Source: Coprothermobacter proteolyticus DSM 5265 (GTDB lineage Bacteria > Coprothermobacterota > Coprothermobacteria > Coprothermobacterales > Coprothermobacteraceae). Taken from it: DNA of 64,000 nt. Below, in pieces: positions 7,735-13,064 of the stretch (its first letter is position 1; the number at the start of each line of letters is the position of its first letter). The notes under the pieces were generated by a model. That model was not told the DNA's origin, searched no databases, and was given only the letters and a program-made list of their open reading frames with translations. The DNA is taken from the NCBI RefSeq assembly GCF_000020945.1, contig NC_011295.1, positions 620,001 to 684,000 of the forward strand. The letters run 5' to 3'. Made by a program: the position numbers and the translations under genes.

Positions 7735-9219
7735 TTATGGAGTAAAACCTTTGAAGAGCATGACGTCGCGCACTACCTGTCTGAACCAAGGCGCTGCAAC
7801 GTAAACGGCTAAAGAAGGACTTATCTTCTGTGGTCTGTCAATGCTGATAAGGAGAATCATTTCTGGGTTATCACCTGGTAGGAGCCCCACGTAAGAATAA
7901 AGTCTGTCGGTTTGGTTGTATTGCCCGTTTACGGGGACCTGTGCAGTTCCTGATTTCGCTGCCACATTGAAATATTTGCCTTTATAGGGAACAGCAGCTG
8001 CGGATACGGTGGGAGTTGCAATAGTCTTCATAATATTCCGTACAATGTTGGCGGATTCAGGACTAACAACTCTGGTAGGCGTTGCAGTGGGAAATTCGAT
8101 GTGCTGATCTCCCACTGTGATGCTCTTAACTAACCTTAAGTTATAAAGCAGTCCATTATTAGCAATGGCAGTATAGGCTCTGACAAACTGCAGAGGCGTG
8201 AGAGCCACTCCCTGGCCAAAACCCGCGTTGAGTAGACTGGCTTGTGTATTTTGAGGCAAAATGGACTTAGCTTCGCCAGGGAAGTGCAGTACGGGATCAT
8301 CCATGCCATAGCGTTTCAGGCCAGCTATCAGCCTGTCGTAGCCAGTCTTCTTTGCTACTGTGGCCATGTAAATGTTGCTGGACTGTTGGAGAGCCTTAGT
8401 TAGATCTACGGTTCCAAGGAATTTCCAATCTCTTATGGTTATCCCATCTATTTGGGTAACTCCAGGTGAATAGACCGTAAAAGAAGTATCTATGGCGCCT
8501 ACATCGAGCGCCCATGCCATGACTAAAGGTTTGAAGATGGACCCGGGCTCAAATAACTCTTGGTATAGCGGTGAACTACCTGCTTTGTTTTTTGTAAAAG
8601 CCGATCCTGCCAGAATGTCCCCTTTGTTTGATATGATCACTATCCATGCTCTTTCTGGCCCCAACTGATCTGCAATTTGCGAAACGTAATCATCGGTGAT
8701 TTTTTGTAAACCTGCATCAATGGTTGTCTCCACCGTGGGTTGAGTGGAGGTCTTGGAGAAAACGAATCTGGTGCTCAGAACCAGGTCTAGAGCAGCCTCG
8801 AGCCCTGTGTTGCCTCCGGGAGTATGTGTTCCCACCAGGAATCGGGTGCTGTCTGCTTGCTGACGTTGTTCACGAAGTTCTACCCAGGCATAGGGAGTAT
8901 CCACGTTTACGTGTGGCAGAGACTGTATTTCCTCGCACTTGAGCTGCACAATCTTTTCCAATTCTTCGTTACAGGAACTCTCGAGAAGTGCTTTAGGTCC
9001 CCATAGACGCTTTGTTATGCTCGAACTATTATAGGCGATGGCGCCTCCGCTTGAGGTTATGGATCCTCTTAGAACCAAAGAAGGCGACAAAGGTTTTTCT
9101 GCCTGATCATGGATGTATTCGATGGATGTAAACACTGATATGAACATGATTACAAAAGCTGTAAACAGTAGCAGTGGTATCATTACGTAGCGTTTCACGC
9201 TTATAATGTTAGCATGCAT
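7735..9219 (-). CDS. Class B penicillin-binding protein (FtsI/PBP2-like transpeptidase)
   Basis: Membrane-anchored D,D-transpeptidase that cross-links peptidoglycan and is the target of beta-lactams. One membrane helix lies at about residues 12-31. The active-site motifs are Ser227-Ile-Phe-Lys230, Ser280-Ser-Asn282 and Lys422-Ser-Gly-Thr425. There is no glycosyltransferase domain. The region between helix and transpeptidase domain is only about 150 residues, so the protein (494 residues) is shorter than typical FtsI. The ATG at 9219 has no Shine-Dalgarno; an in-frame GTG at 9198 would also keep the whole helix. It is transcribed away from the PfkB gene 30 bases off. Confidence 0.88.
   Translation of the reverse strand: MHANIISVKRYVMIPLLLFTAFVIMFISVFTSIEYIHDQAEKPLSPSLVLRGSITSSGGAIAYNSSSITKRLWGPKALLESSCNEELEKIVQLKCEEIQSLPHVNVDTPYAWVELREQRQQADSTRFLVGTHTPGGNTGLEAALDLVLSTRFVFSKTSTQPTVETTIDAGLQKITDDYVSQIADQLGPERAWIVIISNKGDILAGSAFTKNKAGSSPLYQELFEPGSIFKPLVMAWALDVGAIDTSFTVYSPGVTQIDGITIRDWKFLGTVDLTKALQQSSNIYMATVAKKTGYDRLIAGLKRYGMDDPVLHFPGEAKSILPQNTQASLLNAGFGQGVALTPLQFVRAYTAIANNGLLYNLRLVKSITVGDQHIEFPTATPTRVVSPESANIVRNIMKTIATPTVSAAAVPYKGKYFNVAAKSGTAQVPVNGQYNQTDRLYSYVGLLPGDNPEMILLISIDRPQKISPSLAVYVAAPWFRQVVRDVMLFKGFTP
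9202..9207 (+). promoter_or_regulatory. -10 box for the PfkB-family gene
   Basis: TATAAT at 9202-9207 would start transcription near 9214, giving a leader of about 35 bases that contains AAGGAGGG at 9236-9243 before the ATG at 9249. No convincing -35 hexamer lies 16-18 bases upstream. The box is inside the first codons of the divergent PBP frame, which also bears on where that gene really starts. Confidence 0.5.
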
Positions 9220-9248
9220 GTTGCAGAAACCGAGAAAGGAGGGATGTC

Positions 9249-10184
9249 ATGATAATAACTGTTACATTGAACCCTGCAATTGACATGTGGCTGACGGTTC
9301 CAGCTTTGGAGAAAGGAAAGTTTGTTAGATCGGAAAAAGAGCGTTTGAATGCAGGGGGGAAAGGTGTCATCATTGCAAGGATTTTGCAGAAGCTAAACAT
9401 GGGACCTGTGGTAGCATCAGGCATTTTAGCTGGTAGAACTGGGCTAACGCTGGAGGATTATCTTTCCAGGGAGAAAGTGCCTGCAAACTTTGTGTTTTTA
9501 CCAGGCTTTGACACCAGACTGAACATTGAAATTGTCGATAGCACCGACAATTCTGTTACTCAGATAAACACAACTGGTCCTTCCGTGTCTGAGGAACATG
9601 TCCAGCAGCTCATAAACAACATTCTGCGCATAAGTCATGCTGACGATCTGGCAGTGCTGGCAGGTCACGTGCCTGTGGGTCTATCAGAGGACGTGTATGT
9701 GCAAATATCAGACACATTAATGAAAAAAGGTCTGAAAGTGGTGGTTAACGCAGGTGCGCAGTTTGTGAAGCCTGTGTTGGAATCCAGTAGTGATGTTGGA
9801 GTAGTTCTGGATCCCAAAGGGCCCAACGGATTCCAGATAACTTCGCTGGATGACGAGGTTGAATTGGTAAAAAAGTACCTAAAAGAGAGACCTGTTTTGA
9901 GTTTCTCGTGGTCAAACACCGAAAATGTCATTGGTATGAATGGAAAGATTTATCATGCCAGAATTGTAAACCCTAACATTAGAACGCTTTGGGGAGCTAA
10001 CTCTGCGCTGACCGCTGGTTTGGTGTATGGTGTTCACGAAGGACTAGCTCCTGAGGAAACAATTTCTTTGGCCATGGCCATGGCTTATTATGTGGCACGA
10101 GATCCGTGGGCGTTATTTGATAATCCAAATCCTTTTGATGAGATCACAAAGTTAAGAGATTCCATTGAGGTAAGGTTAATCTAG
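9249..10184 (+). CDS. PfkB-family (1-phosphofructokinase-like) protein with degenerate active site
   Basis: 311 residues whose start (MIITVTLNPAID) is that of FruK/LacC sugar-phosphate kinases. Several hallmark motifs are altered: GGKGINVA reads GGKGVIIA (36-43), the KPN motif reads DPK, the nucleotide loop SLGxxG reads SWSNTEN, and the catalytic GAGD reads Gly249-Ala-Asn-Ser252. In an ungapped alignment the catalytic base Asp becomes Ser. The fold is very likely kept but phosphofructokinase activity is doubtful. It has its own -10 box, a good Shine-Dalgarno 5 bases before the ATG and a strong terminator, so it stands alone. No PTS or fru genes are near. Confidence 0.8.
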   Translation: MIITVTLNPAIDMWLTVPALEKGKFVRSEKERLNAGGKGVIIARILQKLNMGPVVASGILAGRTGLTLEDYLSREKVPANFVFLPGFDTRLNIEIVDSTDNSVTQINTTGPSVSEEHVQQLINNILRISHADDLAVLAGHVPVGLSEDVYVQISDTLMKKGLKVVVNAGAQFVKPVLESSSDVGVVLDPKGPNGFQITSLDDEVELVKKYLKERPVLSFSWSNTENVIGMNGKIYHARIVNPNIRTLWGANSALTAGLVYGVHEGLAPEETISLAMAMAYYVARDPWALFDNPNPFDEITKLRDSIEVRLI

Positions 10185-10215
10185 GCTCCTTACCTCAATG
10201 GAATCCGTCTTTTTT
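10158..10215 (+). terminator. Rho-independent terminator of the PfkB-family gene
   Basis: A perfect 18-base-pair inverted repeat (10158-10175 with 10188-10205, 12-base loop) is followed by a T-rich tract at 10208-10215. The left arm and the stop codon belong to the coding sequence, so the last seven codons double as terminator stem. It separates the gene from the convergent polyamine synthase gene, which ends at 10223. Confidence 0.92.
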
Positions 10216-11687: not shown

Positions 11688-13064
11688 GTGATTCCTCTGG
11701 TTGGAAATAACATGAAGAGTATTGAGAGTATTCTTTTCGAGGATTACCAAGTAGAACCTGCTGCGTTAATGGAGGTTGCAGGCAGAAGCGTAGCCGAGCA
11801 GGTTGTTAGTCTAGCGAATCCAAAAACAGTGGGCGTGGTAGCTGGCAAAGGTAACAACGGTGGGGATGCGCTTACCTGTGCACGTTTTCTACTGGATAGA
11901 GGAATAAACGTTAAGGTGTTCTCTTTAGAGAGTTCTGTTCGCTTGACTTACTTGTTGGATGAAGGAGCTGTGGTTTGCAAAGACATAAAACAGCTGCAGG
12001 ATTGTGATGTGCTGGTAGACGGTCTGTTTGGCTATGGTTTTAGACCGCCCGCGGGAGAGGCATATGCCACTTTAATCAATGAAATGAATGCTTTGTCACT
12101 TCCCGTGGTTAGCATTGACATGCCTTCTGGACTTCCTGCTGAAGGCATGGTGGAAGAACCCATCGTACAGGCGGAACTCACAGTTTTTTTGGGTTTACCG
12201 AAGGTTAATGCTGTGACTGGATTGGGTTTAATGAGGAGCGGCAGGTTTGTCTTGGATGGTCTTGGGTATGGTAGGTTCTTAGAAAGCCATGCTGAAAGTT
12301 TAGCGTATTCGATTGAATCTACCGATGCAGAAAAAATAATGGCAAGTGGGATAGCGATGCCTTACCATAAAAGAGAGGCAGGACTAGTAAGTGTAGTGGC
12401 TGGGTCAGAACATTTTCCTGGAGCAGCTCTTTTAGTAGTAAAAACACTTTTACTAATGGGGGCAGGACTTGTTTATATAAAAAGTGATCAGCACGTGGAA
12501 GAGCTTGTTATAAGTGAATTTCCTCAAGTAGTCAGAGGTGATGGACCAGGTGCAAAAGTTATTGGTCCGGGTCTTGAAGATGTATCTTTGGCTTTATCTA
12601 TGGCTGCCACAGATTTTCCAAAAGTCATTGATGCTGGTGGTTTGCGTTCAGAGGTGCTTGAGCACGCCAAAAATGCAGTGATAACGCCCCACGAAGGTGA
12701 GGCTGCGCGTCTTCTCAATACGAGCGTGGAAGAGGTAAGGAGGAATCGATACAATGCAGCGAAACGCCTCTATGAACGATTTGGACACGTAGTTTTGTTA
12801 AAAGGCCCGGGAACCATTATCTATGATGGCCAAAGGTGGCTCGTCATCCCCATTAACGAACCAAGGTTAGCTACCGGGGGTACAGGAGACGTTTTATCCG
12901 GTCTAATCGGCTTCTTTTTGAGCAGAGGAATGACTTTGGCTGATGCAGCCGTATCGGCTGCTTATTTACATGCAAAGTGTGCTTCGGAGTTTTCTACGGG
13001 TTTGAATTTGAATAAGTTCATAGAAAGGATTGCTGAATCCTGGTGGGCCCATTATGACCGTTGA
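11688..13064 (+). CDS. nnrD: Bifunctional NAD(P)HX epimerase/dehydratase
   Basis: Repairs hydrated NAD(P)H. The N-terminal epimerase (YjeF_N) domain, about residues 1-200, has AGKGNNGGDAL. The C-terminal dehydratase domain (YjeF_C), about 215-455, has the ribokinase-like run IGPGLE, TPHEGEAARLL, LLKGPGT and ATGGTGDVLSGL, the last holding the catalytic Asp. 458 residues is somewhat below the usual 490-520. The start is GTG 11688 with GGGAGGC 8 bases upstream. Coupling to acpS is common in bacteria. Confidence 0.92.
   Translation: MIPLVGNNMKSIESILFEDYQVEPAALMEVAGRSVAEQVVSLANPKTVGVVAGKGNNGGDALTCARFLLDRGINVKVFSLESSVRLTYLLDEGAVVCKDIKQLQDCDVLVDGLFGYGFRPPAGEAYATLINEMNALSLPVVSIDMPSGLPAEGMVEEPIVQAELTVFLGLPKVNAVTGLGLMRSGRFVLDGLGYGRFLESHAESLAYSIESTDAEKIMASGIAMPYHKREAGLVSVVAGSEHFPGAALLVVKTLLLMGAGLVYIKSDQHVEELVISEFPQVVRGDGPGAKVIGPGLEDVSLALSMAATDFPKVIDAGGLRSEVLEHAKNAVITPHEGEAARLLNTSVEEVRRNRYNAAKRLYERFGHVVLLKGPGTIIYDGQRWLVIPINEPRLATGGTGDVLSGLIGFFLSRGMTLADAAVSAAYLHAKCASEFSTGLNLNKFIERIAESWWAHYDR

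Follow-up and report, generated by a model that had tools for sequence, protein, structure and literature searches.

A lineage of putative PfkB-fold pseudokinases shared by the Coprothermobacterales and related to TM0828-like proteins

We found that a 311-amino-acid FruK-type protein of Coprothermobacter proteolyticus and its orthologues form a pseudokinase lineage, spanning the order, within the known PfkB fold family. Motif comparison makes it well supported that the protein is non-catalytic, and it is now probably a sensor rather than an enzyme. More specifically, we lean towards the gene product being a catalytically dead FruK-type PfkB member that acts as a sugar-phosphate-binding regulatory subunit, because the catalytic residue is lost, the shape and part of the sugar pocket are kept, and its kin are a subfamily paired with CBS-domain proteins. 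The gene lies in the window, by which we mean the whole 64,000-nucleotide stretch analysed here (positions 620001-684000 of the 1.42-Mb genome). An earlier note on this DNA had given its frame, ATG start, strand and coordinates correctly (Table 1).

Table 1. Coordinates, in the window, of the gene, its flanking signals and its motifs
Feature	Coordinates	Strand	Remarks
PfkB-fold putative pseudokinase gene	9249..10184	+	311 aa; order-wide orthologue family, kin to TM0828-like subfamily
TATAAT, -10-like box	9203..9208	+	in a stretch nearly identical across five genomes, with divergent genes on either side
Shine-Dalgarno AAAGGAGG	9236..9243	+	from sequence
Terminator: 18-bp perfect hairpin, 12-nt loop, then T run	10158..10215	+	5' arm is coding
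TLNPAID, residues 6-12, N-terminal substrate motif	9264..9284	+	Asp12 kept in all
GGKGVIIA, residues 36-43	9354..9377	+	GGKG kept; canonical Asn/Asp at 41 is Ile in 7/7
DTRLNI, residues 88-93, TRxN sugar-side motif	9510..9527	+	Arg90 in 69/69
VLDPKG, residues 186-191, KPNxxE site	9804..9821	+	Lys lost; Asn to Asp, as in TM0828-like; Glu to Gly
VLSFSWSNTENVIG, residues 216-229, in place of SLGxxG	9894..9935	+	diverged form of subfamily motif SYxxxxDI(V/I)
GANSALTAGL, residues 249-258, former GAGD anion hole and catalytic Asp	9993..10022	+	8/10 columns invariant in order

The FruK-like fold that had been read from end to end of the sequence was borne out. The protein matched the Pfam PfkB model (PF00294) over threshold (5e-8, 33 bits against a cut-off of 25.8), and its PDB matches were FruK, LacC and TM0828. 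It fell below the cut-offs of the narrower models, namely the 1-PFK subfamily TIGR03168 (3e-47, 161 bits against 216.4), the 1-phosphofructokinase (FruK) model TIGR03828 (159.9 against 292) and NCBIfam lacC, for tagatose-6-phosphate kinase (81.3 against 409.55). An AlphaFold model built on five sequences (those of the window protein, of three orthologues from Coprothermobacter and of a FruK on a viral contig) reached a pLDDT of 83.1 and a pTM of 0.86, and replaced a four-sequence model that was too weak (pLDDT 58.7). Its weak regions, residues 191-195 and 220-222, correspond to the former metal and ATP loops. Foldseek with this predicted model returned Thermotoga maritima TM0828 (2AJR) on top at TM 0.85, followed by FruK and LacC, and the best matches ran across the whole chain at TM 0.85-0.87. 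The predicted structure confirms the protein as a PfkB-fold relative of FruK type; since the catalytic Asp is missing, we file it as a non-catalytic PfkB-fold homologue and not as a PfkB kinase.

Motifs were compared in a 69-sequence alignment, gapless at GAGD/GANS, of the 7 sequences of this order and 62 other FruK-type sequences. The earlier note had held that the catalytic Asp is gone and that an alignment placing an Asp there would speak against it; the residue is Asp in 62/62 of the others and Ser (6) or Ala (1) in the order's seven, so that objection falls away. At the third residue of GxGD the others have Gly (60) or Asp (2) and the order has Asn in 7/7; position 41 is Asn or Asp in the others and Ile in 7/7, and the KPN lysine position, elsewhere Lys or Arg, is Val in 7/7. 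Asp12, Lys38 and Arg90 are kept in 69/69, and NPAID, GGKG and the TRxN Arg in all seven of the order. Thus, the window protein shares fold, length, NPxxD, GGKG and TRxN with FruK and LacC, and differs from them in having neither the catalytic Asp, the GxGD glycine, the substrate Asn, the KPN lysine nor SLGxxG, and in scoring under both of their NCBIfam cut-offs. The strings that had been listed as four changed motifs (GGKGVIIA, DPK, SWSNTEN and GANS) are all present and the changes are real, but the N-terminal di-glycine motif is intact (GGKG, invariant in 7/7), only the Asn that follows being lost, and KPN had been read two residues off. In the aligned register Asp188, the D of DPK, stands opposite the Asn of NxxE and Val186 opposite the Lys. 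Position 191, the second metal-binding acid, is Gly in the window protein and Asp or Glu in sister taxa, which suggests that the metal site decays stepwise. Invariant columns are concentrated in residues 36-74 (20/39, P 7e-4) and in GANSALTAGL (8/10, P 7e-4); across orthologues, where conservation of GANS had been proposed as a check, the altered motif is retained as GAN(S/A)ALxAG. In the PfkB kinase RikA, the Asp-to-Ala change D343A at the catalytic site abolished activity (PMC13432705), and in E. coli Pfk-2 an Asp-to-Asn change crippled catalysis with only a mild effect on substrate binding, as cited in PMC5405513.

Not all of the altered motifs bear on this loss. In the tree the order's seven sequences grouped with 23 TM0828-like sequences with support of 97/97 (97/96 in another sample), on an alignment that kept the motif columns and with weak branching order inside the clade. 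In the little-studied TM0828-like group, SLGxxG is replaced by SYxxxxDI (or SHxxxGDI) and KPNxxE by KPDxR, and GxGD or GADD is kept; GADD is the motif of the TM0828-like PfkB of a second phylum. The window protein carries diverged forms of the subfamily motifs, SWxxxxNVI for SYxxxxDI and, in the DPK string, DxK for DxR. Since the subfamily has retained the catalytic Asp, the changes at SLGxxG and NxxE, which it shares, are not private decay of the window protein. The earlier proposal that the whole altered set signals loss of activity is therefore not supported: two of the four sites, SLGxxG and the Asn of NxxE, differ from the canonical form across this widespread subfamily. Two of the four listed changes most likely predate the loss of the catalytic Asp, to judge from this distribution. 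Four losses are private to the order: those of the catalytic Asp, the glycine of GxGD (replaced by Asn), the substrate Asn (replaced by Ile) and the KPN lysine. Besides its fold and clade, the window protein has in common with TM0828 the lost SLGxxG and the NxxE Asn changed to Asp with a basic residue two positions on; TM0828-like proteins differ in having the catalytic Asp, the GGKGxN Asn and a CBS gene 3', none of which belongs to the window protein. As it keeps the catalytic Asp, the TM0828-like subfamily may be active, and its PfkB is present in about 75 of the 81 sampled Thermotogota genomes.

CBS domains bind adenine nucleotides. A gene of about 150 codons for a protein with two CBS domains followed the TM0828-like PfkB gene on the same strand in 30/30 fetched Thermotogota loci, the best-scoring 30 of about 75 PfkB genomes, and a two-CBS-domain gene lay directly 3' of PfkB in 20/20 fetched loci of the second phylum, the best-scoring 20 of about 79. 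The gap between the two genes was usually 0-33 nt. The CBS proteins have a common linker, PxYxxxLQS(A/T)(S/A)FxPD, recognisable in the sister family of this order as LVSTSYFPD. When we searched with a profile of the partner, matches of at least 151 bits occurred in 9 genomes, with PfkB directly upstream in 9/9, and among the weaker matches inspected PfkB was upstream in 1/21. Both genomes of the sister family retain the pseudokinase and CBS genes, which overlap, and a CBS partner was absent from 5/5 genomes of the window's family, indicating that this family has lost it. A search of the window's family for the sister family's neighbours (a 135-154 aa protein, the CBS protein and a CitMHS transporter) found none of them. 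At the sister-family loci (L030 6781-8085; L031 10833-12137), a CitMHS/ArsB-type transporter gene lies 3' of the pseudokinase-CBS genes. In the window the pseudokinase gene adjoins genes for a PBP-type transpeptidase and bpsA, in an order that is the same across the window's family. We rejected these neighbours as a clue to function, there being no functional link and the sister family's neighbours being different; with no gene neighbour common to the order's two families, context gives no target.

The gene occurs as one copy in each of the 7/7 genomes of the order, five in the window's family, with 64-95% identity among the others of that family, and two in the sister family, with about 40%. 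Below these orthologues the score falls from about 190 to <100 bits, and the next matches are ordinary FruK-type kinases. In a further family of the phylum, represented by two genomes, only canonical 1-PFK was among the matches found, and a search of viral contigs with the clade alignment found no relatives. In the two pairs whose dS was not saturated (0.4-0.9), dN/dS was 0.030 and 0.067, and in two more distant pairs the pseudokinase's dN was similar to that of neighbouring genes. Purifying selection on the gene is strong, as the earlier note had supposed from its clean frame and signals. Of those signals, the Shine-Dalgarno, the 18-bp terminator (-30.9 kcal/mol, z -5.4; the last part of the pseudokinase coding sequence serves as its 5' arm) and the TATAAT are there, and no -35 match was found. 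The TATAAT falls in a block at 9190-9217, CGTTTCACG-TTATAATGTTAGCATG, lying between the pseudokinase gene and the divergent PBP gene, in which all but one base is identical in five genomes, third codon positions too; the block is a possible bidirectional promoter or operator, and the PBP may start at a conserved GTG instead of the listed ATG. Further along, a predicted NAD(P)HX epimerase/dehydratase-like gene (11688-13064) has a far higher rate of evolution than the genes around it (dN 0.43-0.47, theirs being 0.10-0.31).

These properties, those of a non-catalytic, selected PfkB-fold protein, make a sensor or regulatory pseudokinase, one of the options offered before, the most likely class. 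If the protein is a regulatory subunit, its pocket would still bind a phosphorylated sugar or a related metabolite, ligand binding would close the lid-domain dimer without phosphoryl transfer, and a partner protein would read the two dimer conformations. PfkB kinases take up the sugar ahead of ATP (PMC5405513), which makes a conformational change driven by sugar phosphate possible without catalysis, and E. coli FruK directly binds the regulator Cra (PMC11157272). Because Ile replaces Asn41 in the sugar site, a ligand other than F1P/F6P is possible. In the sister family the adjoining CBS protein, probably a sensor of adenine nucleotides, would be the likely partner; the window's family, which lacks the CBS gene, may use some other partner, or the dimer may act alone. 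As a tentative and rather doubtful extension, the PfkB-CBS pair could be a two-protein metabolic sensor in which PfkB reads sugar phosphate and the tandem CBS domains read adenine-nucleotide charge, the order's PfkB having become a pure receptor after the loss of catalysis and doing without CBS in Coprothermobacteraceae. On that view, donor-site remodelling, loss of the base and loss of the partner would each still have a living group to represent it in this bacterial pseudokinase lineage. The host genome has a separate FruK-type 1-PFK with GAGD (a sister genome's copy runs into EIIA-like sequence) and three PfkA-family genes, two in tandem at 780907-782733 and a third at 608766-609605, so the pseudokinase is not needed as a phosphofructokinase and loss of kinase activity is affordable. 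A second odd FruK paralogue, with GSKS for GGKG and GAGD intact, is found at 1088312-1089115 of the host genome and has orthologues in the same genera. A dead site turned effector site has a parallel in the C-terminal half of eukaryotic PfkA, where the ATP site is lost and the sugar-phosphate site has become an effector site (F') (PMC12203962), though in an unrelated fold and with the dead half fused to a live one.

Other readings of the same pocket have to be weighed. That the protein is a repurposed enzyme, performing hydrolysis, isomerisation or transfer from a donor other than ATP with GANS as a new active-site motif, we consider unlikely. In its favour, few segments are as well conserved as GANSALTAGL, neither Asp188 nor Lys190 varies within the order, the subfamily's donor site is remodelled with a basic residue at DxR/DxK, and a donor switch is known in the ribokinase family, where TM0415 uses PPi (PMC5931981). 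Against this, the sister genus has Ala at position 252, so Ser252 is not an essential nucleophile or base, and the second metal-binding acid varies between Gly, Asp and Glu; the RXGRGD motif of the PPi type is not in the sequence, and we rejected a PPi-dependent kinase on that ground. It is also improbable that the protein is a structural scaffold or assembly factor with its pocket unused, after the manner of plant FLN1/FLN2 in the plastid RNA polymerase. These are pfkB-type proteins with a regulatory role, essential in their complex, in which kinase activity was not detected (PMC5405513, PMC3409070), but, compared by description, they differ in belonging to a eukaryotic plastid and to the fructokinase branch and in having thioredoxin z (TRX z) and the plastid polymerase as partners, and the strong conservation at the pocket motifs NPAID, GGKG and the former GxGD would be needless for a pure scaffold. 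A sugar-phosphate kinase still active through an unorthodox base or substrate-assisted catalysis is very improbable: the fold and the GGKG lysine are retained, and TM0828-like relatives with altered donor motifs retain the catalytic Asp, but four key residues (catalytic Asp, GxGD glycine, KPN lysine, substrate Asn) are missing in 7/7, no invariant Asp was found near the GANS motif in the order's alignment, and the Asp-to-Ala and Asp-to-Asn changes cited above inactivate PfkB-family members. Progressive loss of kinase motifs might suggest a decaying pseudogene, which we reject as having next to no probability given frames intact in 7/7 genomes, the low dN/dS at dS 0.4-0.9, and a conserved promoter block and terminator.

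Bacterial PfkB-family pseudoenzymes are hardly described, and the open papers searched, which cover little of the subscription literature, yielded no account of such a protein or of a PfkB-CBS gene pair. If the regulatory-subunit reading is true, these proteins would form a stepwise series from an active-looking sugar kinase to a dead receptor. They would also draw attention to a kinase-CBS module that is widespread, uncharacterised as far as those papers go, and found both in Thermotogota and in at least one other phylum, and the automatic label '1-phosphofructokinase' for such genes would mislead flux models.
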